Positions 414 through 7,528 of a stretch of 64,000 nt of DNA are shown here, in pieces. The position numbers were made by a program, and so were the translations under genes. How positions within the stretch are numbered: the first letter of the stretch is position 1; each line of letters opens with the position of its first letter. Source of the stretch: an uncultured Sphingomonadaceae bacterium (GTDB taxonomy: Bacteria; Pseudomonadota; Alphaproteobacteria; Sphingomonadales; Sphingomonadaceae); assembly GCA_947488625.1 (NCBI GenBank), contig CANKZR010000006.1:1-64000 (forward strand), given 5' to 3'. The notes under the pieces were generated by a model. That model did not search any database and had not been told where the DNA came from. It saw nothing but the letters and a program-made list of their open reading frames with translations.

Positions 414-992
414 ATGATCATTTACCTGACGGGAAGTCCAGCGAGCGGTAAGACTACCATTGCGGAGCGTCTGGCCGAACGAGAGCATGGCTTAGTGCAT
501 TTTCGATTTGGACAAGTCCTCACCGAACTTATTCGACAGAACCACCAGGTGACCCAAGAGGGGCTTCGGCAAGCCACATCACATGTGTCGACGCCAGACA
601 TTGTCGATCAGGTCAACGAACGAGCTATTGCCACGTGCGAACAATTTAGGGAAACAAACAGCGTTGTTATCGATACGCACGCCGTGACGACTGAAGAAAC
701 AGGGTTTCGGATCACACCGTTATCTGTGGCGCAGATGACGCGATTGAACCCCGATATCTTGGTCTGCCTGACATCTCAGCCCCGGATCAGGGCAGCGCGA
801 GTAAAGGCCGCAGCGCTTGGCCGCCCTCCACTTACGGAAGAGCAACTCCGAACTCAGGCCTTGCTGCAAGAAAGTCTTGTCGTTTCCTATTCCGCTGCGA
901 CCGGTATTCCCGCTTACTTCATGAGAAACGAAACTGATGAGAATCTTCACAGTATCGAGGCTGAACTTTTGGCTCTGATTAGAAAGGGCTGA
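414..992 (+). CDS. Archaeal-adenylate-kinase-like P-loop kinase
   Basis: 192-aa protein with an N-terminal Walker A motif, GSPASGKT (residues 7-14), directly after a hydrophobic beta strand. The body resembles archaeal-type adenylate kinase (AdkA): an FGQVL segment near residue 33, VVIDTHAV near 88 (the archaeal family has a VDTH motif here), a NPDILVCL strand, an arginine-rich lid (RIRAARVKAAALGRP), and a C-terminal nucleotide-base region ending IPAYFMRNE. It probably phosphorylates a nucleotide or a related small molecule, but the substrate cannot be read from sequence. It converges with the zinc-ribbon gene, with only 2 bases between the two stops, so they share no promoter. Housekeeping bacterial Adk has a different architecture, so this looks like an accessory gene. 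Confidence 0.7.
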   Translation: MIIYLTGSPASGKTTIAERLAEREHGLVHFRFGQVLTELIRQNHQVTQEGLRQATSHVSTPDIVDQVNERAIATCEQFRETNSVVIDTHAVTTEETGFRITPLSVAQMTRLNPDILVCLTSQPRIRAARVKAAALGRPPLTEEQLRTQALLQESLVVSYSAATGIPAYFMRNETDENLHSIEAELLALIRKG

Positions 993-994
993 GG

Positions 995-2122
995 CTACGA
1001 CGCGTTCTCAAGCATCCTTTCGAAGAGGTCCTTGCGCGCCAGAGTTTTGCCCTCGAAAATCACCTCTGAAAACGTATCGTCGACAATTCGCTGCCCATCC
1101 TTCTCTACATGGACATGTATTCCAACTTCTTGTGGTCGATCCGCCGTCCACACTATAGCGGGAGTGGATGCCCAGACTCGGAAATCGTGATCGGCCGCAT
1201 AGTCGTCCAAGTTTAGCTGGCGGTCAGGCGAGATTTGATCCGAATTTGAGAGAAAAAAGTCATGTAAGGGTTTCAATGGGGTCGAGACGATAGCTTTCTT
1301 GCTCCAGGTGCTATCGCGTCCGCATGCAGCACAAAAGTGCTTTCTATGGGGCGTCTCCGCAAAGCTACCCATGTCTAGATGAGGGAACCCGCAGCTCGAG
1401 CAATTAATACAATCCATGTCTTTTCCCTCTTCAAGCCCAGCAATGAACTCGAGCGCAGCGGGAGGTGTTATATTCACCCTTTGAATCGAGGCGGATTTAA
1501 ATAGGTCAATCTTTGGATCGTAGAGTAAGGAAATGGCTGCAAAGTCTCCGTCAGTATGCTTTGTTCCACCAGAATGCTCTCGAAGATGAACGTGAATACG
1601 CGGCTTTCTTGCCTGTATTGGGCTTGACGCAATCGCGGCAGGCAGCGAACACCAGATGCCGACCTCAGCGTAACTCTCAATGTCTATTGTCTGAGGATCC
1701 ACCACGTAATTCATCCCCTGAATGTGATTTGCGCAATGCATCTCACCGGTGGTTTCCAGAGATCGTTGGTCCGCCTTTATTCCCCAATGCTTCTGGTGGG
1801 TCCTGCACCAAAGGCGAGTTGCGCCATTCCGGAACTTGCCCGCAGATACGAAGTCACAGGGAAGGACTGCATCGGTGCCTTCTTTAGCTTTGAAGACACC
1901 CATCATTTCTGGCGACGAGACAGCAATGTTCCCCATAGTACGGTCGTCTGCCCAGCAGACTGCAAAAGTCGACGCTGCCACTTCATCATCTACTGCGGGT
2001 ACGTCTGTTTCGTCGCAAACCTTCTCGACGAAAATCTTCTTGGCCGGTGGGCCAGGCTCCCACCTGACCATCCAGAATTCGATTTGTCCTGTTTTGTCGT
2101 TCTTCTTCCGCTCAACGAACAT
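995..2122 (-). CDS. Zinc-ribbon protein of unknown function
   Basis: 375-aa protein that I do not recognise as a named family. It has a likely zinc ribbon in its second half: C238-x2-C241-x2-C244 paired with C264-x2-C267, with H260 and H262 nearby. A looser Cys/His cluster at about 89-133 (C89, C106, H109, H112, C130, H133) could be a second metal site. No signal peptide or membrane segment is visible, so it is probably cytoplasmic. The ATG at 2122 has AAGGA seven bases upstream. It lies 88 bases downstream of the nuclease gene on the same strand, so it may be the last gene of the methyltransferase-nuclease operon. A role in nucleic-acid binding or defence is inference from this context only. 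Confidence 0.6.
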   Translation of the reverse strand: MFVERKKNDKTGQIEFWMVRWEPGPPAKKIFVEKVCDETDVPAVDDEVAASTFAVCWADDRTMGNIAVSSPEMMGVFKAKEGTDAVLPCDFVSAGKFRNGATRLWCRTHQKHWGIKADQRSLETTGEMHCANHIQGMNYVVDPQTIDIESYAEVGIWCSLPAAIASSPIQARKPRIHVHLREHSGGTKHTDGDFAAISLLYDPKIDLFKSASIQRVNITPPAALEFIAGLEEGKDMDCINCSSCGFPHLDMGSFAETPHRKHFCAACGRDSTWSKKAIVSTPLKPLHDFFLSNSDQISPDRQLNLDDYAADHDFRVWASTPAIVWTADRPQEVGIHVHVEKDGQRIVDDTFSEVIFEGKTLARKDLFERMLENAS

Positions 2123-2210
2123 GTGCGATCCTTACTTTCCCACTCAATGAGATAGGCCGCCAACTTCTTTTGCGCAATTCGAGGCTGCGCTTTCATCGGC
2201 AATGTAGTTG

Positions 2211-2957
2211 TCAAAGGTCAGAAGCGGAATTGGCTGACGCATTCCCAAGCCGCATGTCAATCCAAAGGTGGTGCAGCGTTATCGGCGAAGCACCTTTGCG
2301 GGAATTGACAGAAAGGTGCCGTGCCGTACGCCGTGCAACGTCATGTGTCCCTCCTCCAAGGATGTCGGCACGCGACCATCCCGGGATTTCCGCTCGAGTG
2401 AGCACGAGGGCCCAGCGATTAATGCGCGCGAGCCAGCTGGATAAGGTCGGCTCCTGAACGTAGCCGATCATCACACCGATCGCATGGCCGGAGCCGTGGG
2501 CGCCCGACTTAAAGCGCTGCATGCCGCCCGTGGTGCGCTTCTGCGTATGCAAGTATTCTCGTCGCTCTCGCGCCGATCCGGATGGTGTCGGCAGACGCTT
2601 GCACTCGATTGGGATAATAGGATCATAGAGTGAGTAACGTCGACTACCGATCCAGATGACGCAGCCACTTGGCCCAGGTACCAAGTCGAGCGTTCGGCCC
2701 GCAACCGTAGGGTCTGGGACTTCGGCCTGGAATACCACACTGTCCAAGTCGGTTGTCCGGGTGGCGCTGTTTAGGAATTGGCAGAGCTGCGCTGTAAGGC
2801 GCGTCTCTGCGTATTCAGTTGGTCGGGATGGGTCATCGCGCCAGATTGCGAGCTGCGAGTAAACAAAATCGACAAGCGTTTCGAGCCAAGCCGAGGGCTT
2901 ATGTAGTGTTGGCGTTAAGTTACCCGACGGTTCGTCGCCAATTTCGTCCGCCAGCAT
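2211..2957 (-). CDS. PD-(D/E)XK-type nuclease partner of the methyltransferase
   Basis: 248-aa soluble protein with the hallmarks of a PD-(D/E)XK nuclease core. A helix carries a glutamate (E51, in AETRLTAQLCQFL), then comes a strand with D91 in TLDLVP, then E118-x-K120 in PIECKRL. The spacing of 26 residues from D91 to E118 fits the family. Its start overlaps the methyltransferase stop by one base (TGATG), so the two are translationally coupled. The likely role is the cleaving subunit of a restriction-modification or related defence system, with the upstream protein providing methylation and recognition. I do not recognise the exact family. The C-terminal 100 residues are less informative. 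Confidence 0.6.
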   Translation of the reverse strand: MLADEIGDEPSGNLTPTLHKPSAWLETLVDFVYSQLAIWRDDPSRPTEYAETRLTAQLCQFLNSATRTTDLDSVVFQAEVPDPTVAGRTLDLVPGPSGCVIWIGSRRYSLYDPIIPIECKRLPTPSGSARERREYLHTQKRTTGGMQRFKSGAHGSGHAIGVMIGYVQEPTLSSWLARINRWALVLTRAEIPGWSRADILGGGTHDVARRTARHLSVNSRKGASPITLHHLWIDMRLGNASANSASDL

Positions 2958-5833
2958 CAGAAGCCCTGCGCGCGCAAGTCGGCGAGCACGTCGTCGGCGT
3001 CTTTCAATGCGATAGACGGCATCCAGTAGCGCAAGCGGTCGGGCTTAAGCAGGAACACAAACGAAGAGTCGTAAATGCGTGCGATGCGGGTCATTCTTAG
3101 CGAAGTGCCGCGTGTCGTGCAGAGCAGCGTATCGAGCCGTCCAGCCAAGAGATCAGTCTGCGACCAATCGAGCTCTGCGTCTCCGAAGGCGAACGCCTGT
3201 ATGACTGTGCCGCCGAGGCTTAGCGATCCAGCCGCCCGGAGAGGGTTTTTGCGATAGAGCGCGTTTATCTGCTTGGTGAACACGGTGGCAAACCGGTCAA
3301 TGCCGTCTGTTGCCTGGCGGTGAGCCAGCTTAGAAGAGCTACCTAACCGAACGTAGTCGAGATAGTGTTCTAAGATATCGTGGGCGACGAGCCTCTCATT
3401 CTCACTGAGGTCGAGCCCTTTTGCCTTCGGATCGAACGGAAGTTCATAGATGTCGCGGCATGATAGCGTTGTCGCCTTCTGCGACAGCATTCTTAGGCTA
3501 ATGGCAGCCACGTAAGATCGTAACCCGACATGTTCGTTGCGAAGCCAATCCTGTACGGGCTTCAACTCTTCTACCTGATCGGCAGCAAACCCAACGATTT
3601 TATTCTTAAAGGTGAGATATCCGTCGGTCCAGAGTTCGTTTGGTAAGTCTCCGTGCTCGCGAATTAGAAGTATCGGCGGCGTGAAGAGTGCTGCAGTGCG
3701 AGGACCTTCAATCGGTTTACGGTCGACGGTCCCGAGGCGGGATCGGTCGATACCATCGACAGTCAAAGCGTCCGAGGGCAACAAAGGCTGTCCATAGAGG
3801 TGCTCGGCGTGGCCCGACTTGCCCTTCCGACCCTCAATGAAGCCCTCCCCAAATTTCCAACCCATCTTCTTGGCGTGCTCGCGCAGCGACGGCATCTTTC
3901 TCAGCCGCTTTACGAGGGCATATGTACGTGAACCGCCAAGTAGGTTGGATCGCCAGAGGTCCGGCGTTTCGTCGGACTTGACAGCAGCTCTGGGAACTCG
4001 ATGTAGATCATAAGCGTCGATGTCGAAGCGCTGGCCAGCGTCTGCGCGCGCGGTGCGTCGGAAGACGGCATGGAGAATGCTCCCGTCCTTTGGGGGTGGC
4101 TCGGCCACTGCCAGGACCGTGATCACCTTAGTGTCTTTTGAGAAAAGACCCCTGACGGATACAAAGTCGAGAATCTCCCGCACATTCCAATTGGCCAGAA
4201 AACGCCGTCGAAAATCAGGCTTCTCGTTGTAGAGTAGATTGTATTGCTGCAGCATGCCCAGGACGCCACCCGGCCGCAGCAGCCGCATCGACTCATGTAG
4301 AAAAAGGTAGGCGACTTGAAGGTCAGGCAGCTTGCCGTTTTCCTCAATATATCTTGCATGCGCGATCTTCGCCCCGTTGGTCTTTAGCGCCGACTTAAAT
4401 GGAGGGTTTCCAACGAGCACGGCGGTCTTCCTGGACAGTAGTCCGGCGTCTTTCGCCTCGAAGAAACAGGAATGGATGAGACTCGAACCGCGTAGCTTGG
4501 GAAAGAGCTCGGTCGTCCCCCGAATTTGCTCTGGAGTAAGACTGTCGCACATGGCTAGACAAAGGCTGAAAGTCGCAAGTTCAATTGCGCCCTCGTCGTT
4601 GTCTACGCCATGCACGCGCCTGAGGAAGTCGCGCAGAGTGGAAACGTCGGGATGCGCCCAGTCATTACGTGCGCGCCAACGCGTGACAATTCGCTTGTAC
4701 GTCTCGACGAGAAAAATGCCTGACCCGCAGGCGGGATCGAGTGCGACATCATCACCGTCGATGATGCTGTCGATGCGATTTTCGTCGAGCACCTCGTCGA
4801 GGATCAGCCTGACGAGGGCCGGGGGTGTATAGACGCTATCGGTCGGGTCGCTGACAAATAGCTCGTAGATATTGCTGATAACCTCGACTGGGAGATCTCG
4901 GAATGAGTACAGTGCCCAGAGATTCATCTGGCCCGATTCATCCTCACGTGCTTCAATCAACCGGCTAAACTCAGAGAGTTCCTTCGCCGTCGCAATTGCA
5001 GCTATCTCGGTCTCGTCGAGCGTGAAGACATCGCCGTTGAAGAGAACTTGCAAGCTGGCGAGCACCTTGAGGAGTGCGGCGCTGTCAGCGAGCACGGCTG
5101 GGAATGTCCTTGCGCCATCGAGAAACTTGGCGAAATATCCGTCCGGAAGCGCGTTGCGTTGGTCGAGATAGGCGACGAGAAGCGACAAAATGAGCAAGCG
5201 GCGTTGTAGGTCACTGTCGAGCTTGCTGTTTGCCAGCAACCGCGAGCGTAAACTTCTCACGGCACCGACTAGGCGGCGGTGTGCGGACTCGTCGCTCGAG
5301 AGGAGCCTCTTTGCTGCCTCTGGATCGTCCCACAAAGTTCCAGTGCGGATGCGGCTGGCGTCCCACCACGATTCCGCCTTCGCGATGTCGGCTGATATAC
5401 GCAGTGTGTCGTAAGGTTTGCAGACAAGGCGCCCATTCTCCGCGAAGTCAGGACGGTGAGCGCACCGGAAGATTTGAACCGCATCGGGGAGGCGACGGTA
5501 GATTAATGGGACCCCGCCCCAGCTCCAAAGCCGCTGGTGTACCTCAGCGAACTGCTTGTCAGCCTCCGCGCCCTGGGAGCCCTCAAAGATAAAGGCCTGC
5601 GGGCTGCCGTTGCCGCCATCTGGGCTAACCTCGAAGAACACGGAGTGCGCGCCGTAGGCGGCGGCTTTCTCCATAATGACGGCCTCTTTTGCGGGGCGCG
5701 CTTGAGGTATGTAACCTTCGACTGAAACGAGGCCTTCCTTATCCACCTCGCTGGCTCCGCCGCCGAGCAACCAGTTGACATCGGCGAGCGGTGACCCTCC
5801 ATCCCCTTCGGTGCCTCGGGGTCGGCCCGTCAT
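2957..5833 (-). CDS. Eco57I/type IIG-like N6-adenine DNA methyltransferase
   Basis: 958-aa protein. The central catalytic domain has motif I, DPACGSG (around residue 364), and motif IV, NPPF (around residue 473), the S-adenosylmethionine-binding and catalytic motifs of N6-adenine methyltransferases. Between them lies a typical N6_Mtase helical segment. The first 160 residues contain a strand-rich stretch (VFFEVSP, AFIFEGSQ) that may be a degenerate nuclease or dimerisation domain, but I cannot point to a convincing catalytic triad. The C-terminal 400 residues are suitable for target recognition. The start overlaps the stop of the small RHH gene (ATGA), and the stop overlaps the start of the nuclease gene. 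The size and single-chain form fit type IIG-like or BREX-PglX-like enzymes, but no other BREX genes are present. Confidence 0.8.
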   Translation of the reverse strand: MTGRPRGTEGDGGSPLADVNWLLGGGASEVDKEGLVSVEGYIPQARPAKEAVIMEKAAAYGAHSVFFEVSPDGGNGSPQAFIFEGSQGAEADKQFAEVHQRLWSWGGVPLIYRRLPDAVQIFRCAHRPDFAENGRLVCKPYDTLRISADIAKAESWWDASRIRTGTLWDDPEAAKRLLSSDESAHRRLVGAVRSLRSRLLANSKLDSDLQRRLLILSLLVAYLDQRNALPDGYFAKFLDGARTFPAVLADSAALLKVLASLQVLFNGDVFTLDETEIAAIATAKELSEFSRLIEAREDESGQMNLWALYSFRDLPVEVISNIYELFVSDPTDSVYTPPALVRLILDEVLDENRIDSIIDGDDVALDPACGSGIFLVETYKRIVTRWRARNDWAHPDVSTLRDFLRRVHGVDNDEGAIELATFSLCLAMCDSLTPEQIRGTTELFPKLRGSSLIHSCFFEAKDAGLLSRKTAVLVGNPPFKSALKTNGAKIAHARYIEENGKLPDLQVAYLFLHESMRLLRPGGVLGMLQQYNLLYNEKPDFRRRFLANWNVREILDFVSVRGLFSKDTKVITVLAVAEPPPKDGSILHAVFRRTARADAGQRFDIDAYDLHRVPRAAVKSDETPDLWRSNLLGGSRTYALVKRLRKMPSLREHAKKMGWKFGEGFIEGRKGKSGHAEHLYGQPLLPSDALTVDGIDRSRLGTVDRKPIEGPRTAALFTPPILLIREHGDLPNELWTDGYLTFKNKIVGFAADQVEELKPVQDWLRNEHVGLRSYVAAISLRMLSQKATTLSCRDIYELPFDPKAKGLDLSENERLVAHDILEHYLDYVRLGSSSKLAHRQATDGIDRFATVFTKQINALYRKNPLRAAGSLSLGGTVIQAFAFGDAELDWSQTDLLAGRLDTLLCTTRGTSLRMTRIARIYDSSFVFLLKPDRLRYWMPSIALKDADDVLADLRAQGF

Positions 5834-6003
5834 TTCCGCCCCGCTTTCTTGCTCAGCTCAAAGCCTTCCTTCAGCAGGTCGAGCATAGATATGCCGCGCT
5901 CAGCAGCATAAACTTTATAGGACCGTTTGAAGGCCTCCGGTACCTTGAAGTTGAGCGTCTGGAGCTCTTCCGGCTCTTTTCCGCCGCTACTCTTCCTCGC
6001 CAT
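5830..6003 (-). CDS. Small ribbon-helix-helix-type regulator
   Basis: 57-aa basic protein with the pattern of a ribbon-helix-helix DNA-binding protein: a short strand (LQTLNFKVP), a first helix (EAFKRSYKVYAAERG), then a second helix (SMLDLLKEGFELSKKAG). I chose the ATG at 6003, not an earlier one at 6048, because a strong GGGGGAGGG ribosome site precedes it by about ten bases. It is the first gene of the methyltransferase-nuclease operon and overlaps the methyltransferase start by four bases. It therefore probably acts as the operon's controller protein. An imperfect inverted repeat, TTTCA-N9-TGAAA, at 6092-6110 upstream is a candidate operator. Confidence 0.6.
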   Translation of the reverse strand: MARKSSGGKEPEELQTLNFKVPEAFKRSYKVYAAERGISMLDLLKEGFELSKKAGRK

Positions 6004-6431
6004 AGAAAAGGCCCTCCCCCTCAAAGAGGCCACTGCTTTGCCCGCCACCCTTTAACAGAGCGAGCTGCGCACGGAAAGAAAGAAATCGGGATTTCACGAA
6101 AATTATGAAAGAAGTTATTCGTTATTTATGGATTTCAGTGTTTCGGGGTTTTGTAATTTCAACAGCTCTAGGCTGAGACAATGAGATGCAAAGTGGCATT
6201 GCCATGGGGCTGCGGAGCAAATGGGGAAATGCTTGTGCGGCGGAGGACGGGGGATTCCTAGACAGCGGTAGGCCCCAGAGTTGATAATCCAGTTTATGCC
6301 AGTTCGAGCGTGTGCCCTTTGATCGACGAAGGTCCGCTTTCAGGACTCCCACTGGAGTGGCTCAATGACCGAAACTGGGGCGCAAAGCAGTCATACGGTG
6401 AAATGTAATCGGGCCCGCGGGCGAGCCCCGA
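6004..6431. other. Intergenic region upstream of the methyltransferase operon
   Basis: 428 bases without a convincing gene. The part at 6080-6170 is clearly more AT-rich than its surroundings and includes the inverted repeat TTTCA-N9-TGAAA (6092-6110). It is the natural place for the promoter and operator of the minus-strand RHH-methyltransferase-nuclease operon. Near 6408-6431 a short GC-rich dyad (ATCGGG...CCCGAT) follows the stop of the nucleotidyltransferase-HEPN gene and could help end its transcript, though there is no T run. Confidence 0.4.
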
Positions 6432-7355
6432 TCAAGCGACTGCTTCACTCTTGAGCTTCTCAAGCCGTTCCGAGCATATCTCATGGACAACGCGGCCAAG
6501 TTCCTCGACACGCTCGCCGAGCCATTCGAGTTCTTCCTTGGTGATGCGGTAATGCTTCGAATAGCGGGCCTTGACGTAAGCTTCCTTGAGCTTCTCGAAG
6601 CGGGCACGATCACGCTTGGTGTCGCGCGGCCAGACATACGTCAATCGAGGGTCGATCCGCTCAGCCTGAGTGCGGAGAAAGCCGAGATTGTGCACATGCG
6701 GCGTGTAGAAGGTGCAGACTAGCAAGACACAGTGGTACAAGCGCTCGGCTGCCTGATGAGTTAGAAATGCAGCATCCTTCAGCCGGCCCTGGTTGACGCT
6801 GAATTTTGCAGTCTCCAGCATTCCCGACGCAGCAGGCATCCACTCGTCGAAATACTCCTGCGCCATCGCGAGTGCTTGCACGGGCGTTTTGGGCTTAGGC
6901 TTATGCAGTTCGGTGTCGTCTGCCTGGTAGAGCGCCAGCCCGTCTTTCGCGACATCCATGAAGAAATAGCGGCCATGGGCCAGCCCATCATTCACTTCCT
7001 GCAATGTGTGGACGATAAAATTCACCGGCGTGTTGAGGGTCTTGGTGACGCCGTATTCGCGCATCAGCCGGTCATCGAGCTTGGACCAGTACTTGATGCG
7101 GTCAACCAGACGCTTGTCATTGACGATAACAAGCAGATCATAGTCAGACTGGTAGCCCTTAGCAGTATGGGGTTCATCGACCCATGTTCCGCGTGCATAG
7201 CTGCCGTACAGAATGACCTTGAGGATGCGCCCGGCCTTCTTCCAGTCGTGCTTCGCGAGCGCGAAGGCGTCATCGAATTCTTCGAAGATCAGCTGCACCA
7301 CGCGCTCAAGCTCGCGCTGTTTTTGCGGTGGCAGATGATCGAGTTCGGTGCGCAT
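6432..7355 (-). CDS. Nucleotidyltransferase-HEPN fusion protein
   Basis: About 307-aa protein joining an N-terminal minimal nucleotidyltransferase to a C-terminal HEPN domain. The nucleotidyltransferase signature is visible as GSYARGTW followed by SDYDLLVIV, i.e. the G-S motif and the D-x-D metal-binding pair, plus a third-strand segment at NFIVH. The HEPN half has the long helix with LKDAAFLTHQAAERLYH and a later ARYSKHYRI segment like that in the kanamycin-nucleotidyltransferase-C type. As separate genes MNT and HEPN often form toxin-antitoxin pairs; here they are one chain. The ATG at 7355 has AGAGG seven bases upstream and is preferred over the codon at 7391. It occupies the position where trbB would follow copG in an intact transfer cluster. 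Confidence 0.75.
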   Translation of the reverse strand: MRTELDHLPPQKQRELERVVQLIFEEFDDAFALAKHDWKKAGRILKVILYGSYARGTWVDEPHTAKGYQSDYDLLVIVNDKRLVDRIKYWSKLDDRLMREYGVTKTLNTPVNFIVHTLQEVNDGLAHGRYFFMDVAKDGLALYQADDTELHKPKPKTPVQALAMAQEYFDEWMPAASGMLETAKFSVNQGRLKDAAFLTHQAAERLYHCVLLVCTFYTPHVHNLGFLRTQAERIDPRLTYVWPRDTKRDRARFEKLKEAYVKARYSKHYRITKEELEWLGERVEELGRVVHEICSERLEKLKSEAVA

Positions 7356-7528
7356 AACACAACCTCTAGCAAGCAGTTGGAATAGTTGCACCTATAGACT
7401 GGCGCAGCGGCATTTCGCCCTGCTCCAGAGCGCACCTCTGCTCTCACCCAACCGCAACATTTAACTAAGGTCTGCGCGTCTTCACGCGCGGTGTTGTCGT
7501 GAAGCCATCGAAGCGCGCATCCAATGGA

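Follow-up and report, generated by a model that had tools for sequence, protein, structure and literature searches.

Layout of the locus

We analysed a 64,000-nt stretch of DNA (the window) from an uncultured Sphingomonadaceae bacterium, starting at base 1 of contig 6, in which a putative restriction-modification system is encoded on the minus strand. The original prediction, made from the sequence alone, had proposed four minus-strand genes at 995–6003, and the list of open reading frames (ORFs) contained all of them at these positions. The ribbon-helix-helix (RHH)-like gene stop and the methyltransferase start share ATGA, and the methyltransferase stop and the nuclease start share TGATG, so the predicted coupling of the first three genes was borne out. 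The zinc-ribbon gene begins 88 nt past the nuclease stop and is therefore uncoupled. The features are as follows:

5830–6003, minus strand: RHH-like regulator, 57 aa; ATG at 6003, stop overlapping the methyltransferase start
2957–5833, minus strand: gamma-class N6-adenine methyltransferase with a HsdS-like recognition domain (M~half-S), 958 aa, assigned by Pfam and folds
4718–4738, minus strand: S-adenosylmethionine (SAM)-binding motif DPACGSG, residues 366–372 (alignment of 29)
4397–4408, minus strand: catalytic motif NPPF, residues 476–479 (29/29)
3419–3898, minus strand: predicted target-recognition domain, residues 646–805 (VIA-align and exchange between relatives)
2960–3238, minus strand: conserved C-terminal domain, residues 866–958, candidate nuclease dock
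2211–2957, minus strand: PD-(D/E)XK nuclease, 248 aa, with E51, D91, E118-C-K120 and Q147 (AlphaFold2 model)
995–2122, minus strand: zinc-ribbon protein, 375 aa, a neighbour judged to lie outside the system
6070–6148, minus strand: degenerate 8-bp repeat array, predicted likely operator (lag self-match statistics)

The gamma-methylase, the HsdS-type domain and the PD-(D/E)XK nuclease are all of known kinds; the unusual part is their linkage. As had been stated earlier, no gene for a HsdS-type subunit, no helicase and no BREX genes lie beside the unit. Helicase families gave nothing above cut-off among the seven ORF products scanned between 1 and 7391, and one HSDR_N protein is encoded elsewhere in the genome, on contig 1.

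The methyltransferase and the nuclease occur together

In a tblastn search of 72,556 plasmids, 80% or more of the methyltransferase was covered in 20 records; the same 20 contained the nuclease, as judged by comparing the two lists by eye. Ten of them were fetched with annotation, and in all ten the nuclease gene follows the methyltransferase gene on the same strand. A Rhizobium etli Mim1 record retains 43% of the methyltransferase and was not hit by the nuclease search. A nuclease search of GTDB contigs gave 11 loci, every one with the methyltransferase upstream (in two frames in locus L003; L and G numbers denote loci and genomes). By record title, these loci span Sphingomonadales, rhizobia, Verrucomicrobia, a Planctomycetota bin and a Humidesulfovibrio bin; several of the sources are metagenome bins, and the title of L004, Frankia sp. 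RB7, may be wrong. Within 396 genomes of the window's order, the nuclease was found in 10 (nine full length, one fragment), and a methyltransferase more than 50% identical was found in nine, namely those with the full nuclease, the window's own genome included. Both genes are held by the window's own genome and G496 among 385 genomes of the class. A close methyltransferase was present in four of 189 genomes of the order of G783 (the genome of L010), each time with the nuclease. The homologues of this pair thus did not fail to co-occur, and the conservation of the unit across phyla rules out chance.

The RHH-like gene had also been assigned to the operon. It was present in 14 of 21 homologous loci and in nine of nine further loci of the class, some of them near-identical. 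No such gene was found in L022, L092 or L093, or in six loci whose titles name Verrucomicrobia, Planctomycetota or Humidesulfovibrio; the upstream sequence of three of these six is only 270–350 bases long. These data support a conserved, mobile unit formed by the methyltransferase, the nuclease and the RHH-like regulator.

The methyltransferase carries a predicted HsdS-type recognition domain

The 958-aa protein matched Pfam Eco57I (2.7e-10) and N6_Mtase (6.9e-10). Its top PADLOC model was the Type IIG model REase_MTase_IIG (8.2e-34), in agreement with the earlier description of a IIG-like methyltransferase, and a Type IIG 'REase-MTase' was likewise the top model for five relatives scanned. 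The motifs were intact (D366, C369–G372, N476–F479); D366, C369, G370, S371 and NPPF were present in 29 of 29 relatives, and G372 in 28. A Foldseek search with the whole chain placed BpuSI nearest (rank 1, 5.0e-11), along with CamA and PglX. When residues 646–805 were compared with specificity subunits by VIA-align, they aligned with PacII S (Z 11.6, 137 aligned, 3.2 Å), EcoKI S (Z 11.2) and the 1yf2 S subunit (Z 9.9), indicating that, as modelled, a HsdS-type recognition domain is present there.

Residues 34–200 contain no Lys, hence no (D/E)xK, conserved at 90% among the 29 relatives, so the chain has no recognisable nuclease of its own. Residues 1–200 (5234–5833, minus strand) form a beta-beta-alpha-beta-beta region with the consensus LHKRLWSWGGVPLVYR, which could be a degenerate nuclease-like domain; the model has low confidence there. 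At the other end, residues 921–958 were the most conserved bin of the chain (mean pairwise identity 0.75). The C-terminal domain (866–958) carries ..LLKPDRLRYW..ALKDADDVLADL.. and, used alone as a 98-aa query, it found the same 20 plasmid records and no others. We infer that this domain is a candidate dock for the nuclease.

The separate gene encodes a predicted PD-(D/E)XK nuclease

The proposed catalytic residues D91, E118 and K120 were correct: they were invariant in 21 of 21 aligned sequences, window included, and E51, D91, E118 and K120 were invariant in 29 of 29 of the final set. By alignment, the D..(E)xK active-site residues are thus present in the right order. Pfam, PADLOC and NCBIfam gave no match to the nuclease at E-values up to 1, so no library family, and in particular no non-nuclease family, claimed it. 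When 21 nucleases were scanned singly, PADLOC models matched none and seven Pfam families matched one member each (best E 0.026). A profile of the 21 found no PDB sequence up to E 5, the nuclease had no match in PHROGs up to 0.01, and none was found among 50,697 phage records at E 0.01.

An AlphaFold2 model built from 12 sequences reached pLDDT 77 and pTM 0.79. Its best VIA-align matches were BglII (Z 7.8, 134 aligned, 3.9 Å), BamHI (7.1) and OkrAI (7.1); McrC (6.5), BstYI (6.4) and the N-terminal nuclease of the Type IIG enzyme DrdV (5.5) followed, and NucC was also among the best rows, in a listing where the absence of a family is no proof that it is unlike. The structural list is coherent, though its Z values would not by themselves establish the fold; taken together with the four residues invariant in 29 of 29 sequences, we regard the PD-(D/E)XK assignment, as modelled, as strong. 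The gene was annotated as 'hypothetical' in 19 of the 20 plasmid records and was unannotated in one. Defence inventories are likely to miss the system, because its methylase is modelled as a single-chain Type IIG enzyme and its nuclease is called 'hypothetical'.

The nuclease gene of L007 has an in-frame stop. Recoding was ruled out, since the nearby Verrucomicrobia nucleases (L008, L010 and L011) have no stop there. L007 was excluded from nuclease alignments A3 and A4 and kept as a shortened ORF in the trees, the pairs and the larger of the two sets of triples described below.

In one clear case the nuclease stays with the backbone when the recognition domain is exchanged

A nuclease that reads DNA on its own would be expected to change along with the methyltransferase's recognition domain. 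Before counting, identical methyltransferases and loci without a 900-aa methyltransferase ORF (L003 among them) were removed. The near-identical copies L018 and L036 were left out of pairs, trees and triples, and L012 out of pairs and triples; the L022 methyltransferase ORF of 934 codons was used as is, and residue conservation was counted over all 29 rows.

In the Verrucomicrobia cluster, the identity between L008 and L010 was 0.92 for the catalytic part, 0.95 for the C-terminal domain and 0.85 for the nuclease, and only 0.32 for the recognition domain, with sharp exchange edges near residues 641 and 815. The recognition domain of L010 was 0.62 identical to that of L092, and their nucleases were 0.56 identical; the L008 and L011 nucleases scored 0.55 each against that of L092. 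The recognition-domain tree joined L010 and L092 with support of 100/100. This clade, named after the identities had been seen, was rejected by the nuclease tree (p-AU, approximately unbiased test, 0.0007) and by the catalytic tree (p-AU 0.00025), both of which put L010 with L007, L008 and L011. We then considered triples made up of two close relatives and a third locus whose recognition domain is shared by one of them. Sharing it raised mean identity by 0.206 in the recognition domain and 0.009 in the nuclease in 24 triples with L007, and by 0.207 and 0.001, respectively, in 13 triples without L007; these triples are non-independent and come from three close pairs and two backbones. A second exchange, between L035 and L059, had recognition-domain support of 100/99 and was rejected by the catalytic part (p 0.002). 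These comparisons of sequences suggest that the nuclease stayed with the backbone when the recognition domain was exchanged, in one clear case.

A nuclease that borrows its specificity, and the alternatives

We consider it fairly probable that the locus encodes a two-component restriction-modification system, R + M~half-S, in which the nuclease docks on the methyltransferase, from which it takes its specificity; in this lineage the system is probably autoregulated. The 958-aa protein would use its own HsdS-like domain to recognise a site and methylate adenine there. The 248-aa nuclease would not read the site; it would dock on the methyltransferase-specificity protein and cut when the complex meets unmethylated DNA. 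Since the nuclease has a single active site and no motor, cutting would occur near the site, probably by a dimer of complexes. The RHH-like protein would probably repress the operon through the iterated 8-bp operator and could thereby hold back the nuclease upon arrival in a new host. The system would then work as a Type IIG enzyme with a detached nuclease, or as a Type I system reduced to R + M~half-S. We infer docking, cleavage, the place of cutting, repression and phage defence. If specificity is indeed borrowed, one exchangeable recognition domain would set both marking and cutting, a swapped domain should redirect both methylation and cleavage, and the nuclease would be a portable module; the system would also offer a natural test of the kinship between Type I and Type IIG enzymes.

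Several observations weigh against borrowed specificity, and some of them would suit an ordinary Type II system, in which the 248-aa protein is an independent site-specific endonuclease reading the same sequence as the methyltransferase and only its family is new. The R and M genes are separate in such systems as they are here. The nuclease model is most like BglII, BamHI and OkrAI, and BglII and BamHI recognise DNA themselves. Grouping L035 with L059 was not rejected by the nuclease and even scored slightly higher (p-AU 0.58), which is compatible with co-exchange. Nuclease identity also correlated with recognition-domain identity once the catalytic domain was controlled for (partial r 0.37 in 325 non-independent pairs, and 0.50 in 52 pairs with catalytic identity above 0.75), with a partial r of −0.02 for the C-terminal domain against the recognition domain. 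The narrow base of the triples counts on the same side. Against an endonuclease of this kind, the nuclease in L010 and L092 follows the backbone and not the recognition domain, and a common recognition domain adds almost nothing to nuclease similarity in the triples without L007; we regard it as unlikely, though as the most serious of the alternatives. The structural evidence is itself limited: all nuclease Z scores were below 8, a level that VIA-align calls possibly a mere common arrangement, Foldseek with the nuclease model returned nothing at E 0.001, and the methyltransferase model was weak (mean pLDDT 61), better at residues ~640–890. Nor is the pairing perfect. Two nucleases were found without a methyltransferase, one in G302 (L054, 8187–8972, minus strand, residues 79–239 only) and one on the viral contig L024 (636–1343, plus strand, residues 39–235 only), where neither the 635 bases ahead of it nor the rest of the 9.3 kb gave a methyltransferase match. 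Both lack the N-terminus and are therefore read as decayed. Some pairs have broken methyltransferases, with two frames in L003, a premature stop in L022 and two ORFs in L065.

The methyltransferase might instead mark self or signal, and the nuclease might be an effector that depends on methylation or is triggered by infection, following BREX-like or MADS-like logic. Weak matches to PglX and MAD2 models and the defence-rich plasmid setting (AbiH, PIN, Shedu, TIR and SIR2 genes among the neighbours of the unit) agree with this. It is nevertheless improbable, given that PglZ had no match anywhere in the genome, that the BREX PglX models scored at most 41 bits against cut-offs of 400–900 and the MAD2 model 22.8 bits against 720, and that the genes after the unit differ by annotation among the ten plasmid loci. 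More improbable still is the four-gene defence operon of the original prediction, with an essential zinc-ribbon protein. The zinc-ribbon gene is close by on the same strand in the window, and it was found in 0 of 21 homologous loci, apart from one weak partial match in a TniQ gene, and in one of 21 relatives searched, which was the window's own genome. Its sole relative on the 72,556 plasmids (Azospirillum, 33% identical) stands in an unrelated context, adjoining an unrelated 194-aa gene, and the protein had no Pfam, PADLOC or NCBIfam match up to E 1. The gene was thus ruled out as a fourth component for want of co-occurrence in homologous loci, plasmids and relatives, and the unit comprises three genes.

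Comparison with known systems

Like the Type IIG enzymes BpuSI, DrdV and MmeI, the system has a gamma-class N6-adenine methyltransferase with a C-terminal recognition domain. Reviews describe the R domain of Type IIG enzymes as permanently N-terminal in the same chain (PMC3874165, PMC4081073). Here, in contrast, the nuclease is a separate adjacent gene, and residues 34–200 of the methyltransferase lack a conserved (D/E)xK. As in Type I systems (HsdR, HsdM, HsdS), a HsdS-like domain accompanies a gamma-methylase and the nuclease is a separate subunit; unlike them, M and S are fused, there is one recognition domain per chain, and the nuclease has 248 aa and lacks the helicase/translocase of HsdR.

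A gamma-methylase with a separate nuclease gene is also found in Type IIH ('Type 1 1/2', AhdI) and in DrdI and XcmI. AhdI is described as pairing a gamma-methylase with a Type IIP-like endonuclease and as having a separate S subunit (PMC4081073). By that description the present system is set apart, since its S part is fused and its nuclease failed to follow specificity in one clear case. For Haloferax volcanii HVO_A0006 and HVO_A0237, the authors proposed a split Type IIG system with cooperating nuclease and methylase pieces, HVO_A0006 being a fragment of a Type IIG N-terminus located elsewhere on the plasmid than its proposed partner (PMC4389544). Unlike that pair as so described, the nuclease gene here is fixed beside the methylase across phyla. 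When M and half of S were fused by engineering, the product was active as a methyltransferase and, once HsdR was supplied, restricted phage; its authors present it as an intermediate on the way from Type I to Type IIG (PMC6158711). The nuclease supplied here would, by contrast, be motorless. In open papers, searched by titles and the starts of abstracts, no description of this organisation was found.

Distant methyltransferases and nuclease subfamilies

Six genomes from the order and class of the window contained distant methyltransferases (1032–1059 aa), only 26–29% identical to that of the window, and in all six a downstream gene matched a nuclease profile. Three loci reached through weak nuclease matches had a distant methyltransferase upstream. 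In the order of G783, five distant methyltransferases were each followed by a ~220-aa D..ExK gene: that of L098 matches the profile, and those of L094–L097 (222–228 aa) have D..ExK as seen by eye. From 61 distant plasmid records, seven loci were picked, and five had the nuclease gene. The other two, from Levilactobacillus (L077) and Thermus (L079), lack it, and a segment at their N-terminus resembles HSDR_N, with matches (1.4e-4 and 0.0077) that miss the cut-off. In L078 (Burkholderia glumae plasmid) and L076 (pRSB223), the methyltransferase is annotated as two ORFs, one catalytic and one holding the C-terminal recognition part, with a small nuclease gene after them; this is either a natural M + S + R order or a pair of broken genes.

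Profile comparison linked a second nuclease subfamily to that of the window (E 6.5e-14), and a profile of L094–L097 plus Methylobacterium L073 to the second subfamily (E 7.6e-10); compared directly with the window's nuclease, the latter profile was not significant (E 0.0032, probability 10%). Two distant loci have another upstream regulator, a 158-aa ORF and a MerR family gene, respectively, which suggests that the regulator can be replaced and that the methyltransferase and nuclease together form the core.

A wider proposal, which we hold tentatively and at slightly less than even chances, is that these loci represent a further, unnamed restriction-modification build. It would be R + M~half-S with a motorless nuclease, a permutation between Type I and Type IIG, thinly but widely spread, with at least three nuclease subfamilies; in Alphaproteobacteria, an RHH-like regulator on octads would replace the C protein.

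The regulator and the octad array

The original prediction had named an RHH regulator. We call the protein RHH-like, on the strength of its sequence pattern as judged by eye and of the repeat array; Pfam support did not follow, as the best model, RHH_10, scored 14.7 bits against a cut-off of 27 and no other RHH model in Pfam was above cut-off. A longer GTG start at 6048 is also open. Fifteen aligned sequences share the conserved core LNFK...FK. A further match, at E 5.7e-9, is to phrog_6024, a phage family whose function is unknown.

Upstream of the gene, 20 related loci, which include the near-identical L018 and L041, had a self-match of 0.352, 0.325 and 0.337 at lags 8, 16 and 24, compared with ~0.25 after shuffling (z 13.3, 9.6 and 10.7); these statistics are untrained, though the loci are related. 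In the window, the stretch 6053–6152, picked after inspection, had values of 0.38, 0.40 and 0.38, the mean of which was reached by 0 of 2000 shuffles. The signal was absent from six neighbouring 170-base windows and from six loci without the RHH-like gene (0.237–0.273 at lag 8). The octad unit is approximately TTTCYGGM on either strand, with same-strand spacings that are mostly multiples of 8. The motif had 163 sites in 19 loci (L018 excluded) compared with 26 and 30 in two control windows, counts that are biased because the motif was trained on those same sequences. Tandem Repeats Finder did not detect the array, and a promoter scan of 5950–6450 found no sigma-70-like site on the minus strand.

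Omega and other RHH proteins are described as binding iterated 7-bp repeats and repressing their own operons (PMC3874152, PMC9499535), and RptR as repressing a Type I operon via direct repeats (PMC12255303). Since both act through iterated repeats, an RHH-like autorepressor acting on the octads is, by analogy, the likely control circuit. Like Omega/ParB of pSM19035 and RptR as described, the locus has a small regulator gene first in the operon and an iterated operator; unlike them, the predicted unit is 8 bp long, has another sequence and lies ahead of a restriction-modification operon.

Neighbouring genes

The original prediction placed the genes next to an insertion sequence fragment and a conjugative element. 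A Pfam scan confirmed a transposase fragment at 1–333, inside which the first base of the window, and thus of contig 6, falls. ORFs that look conjugation-like, as judged by eye, follow from ~7.9 kb onwards. Rfam at gathering scores and a tRNA scan of the window returned nothing. A 192-aa P-loop kinase (AAA_17; 414–992, plus strand) is convergent with the zinc-ribbon gene; it has a weak PADLOC match to VakA (7.1e-6), and an archaeal adenylate kinase model scored far under its cut-off. At 6432–7391 (minus strand), a 319-aa protein combines an N-terminal nucleotidyltransferase (Polbeta/SMODS-like) and a C-terminal HEPN domain in a single chain. It is perhaps another defence or toxin-antitoxin gene, and its homologues also lie near the same operon in L003 and L053.

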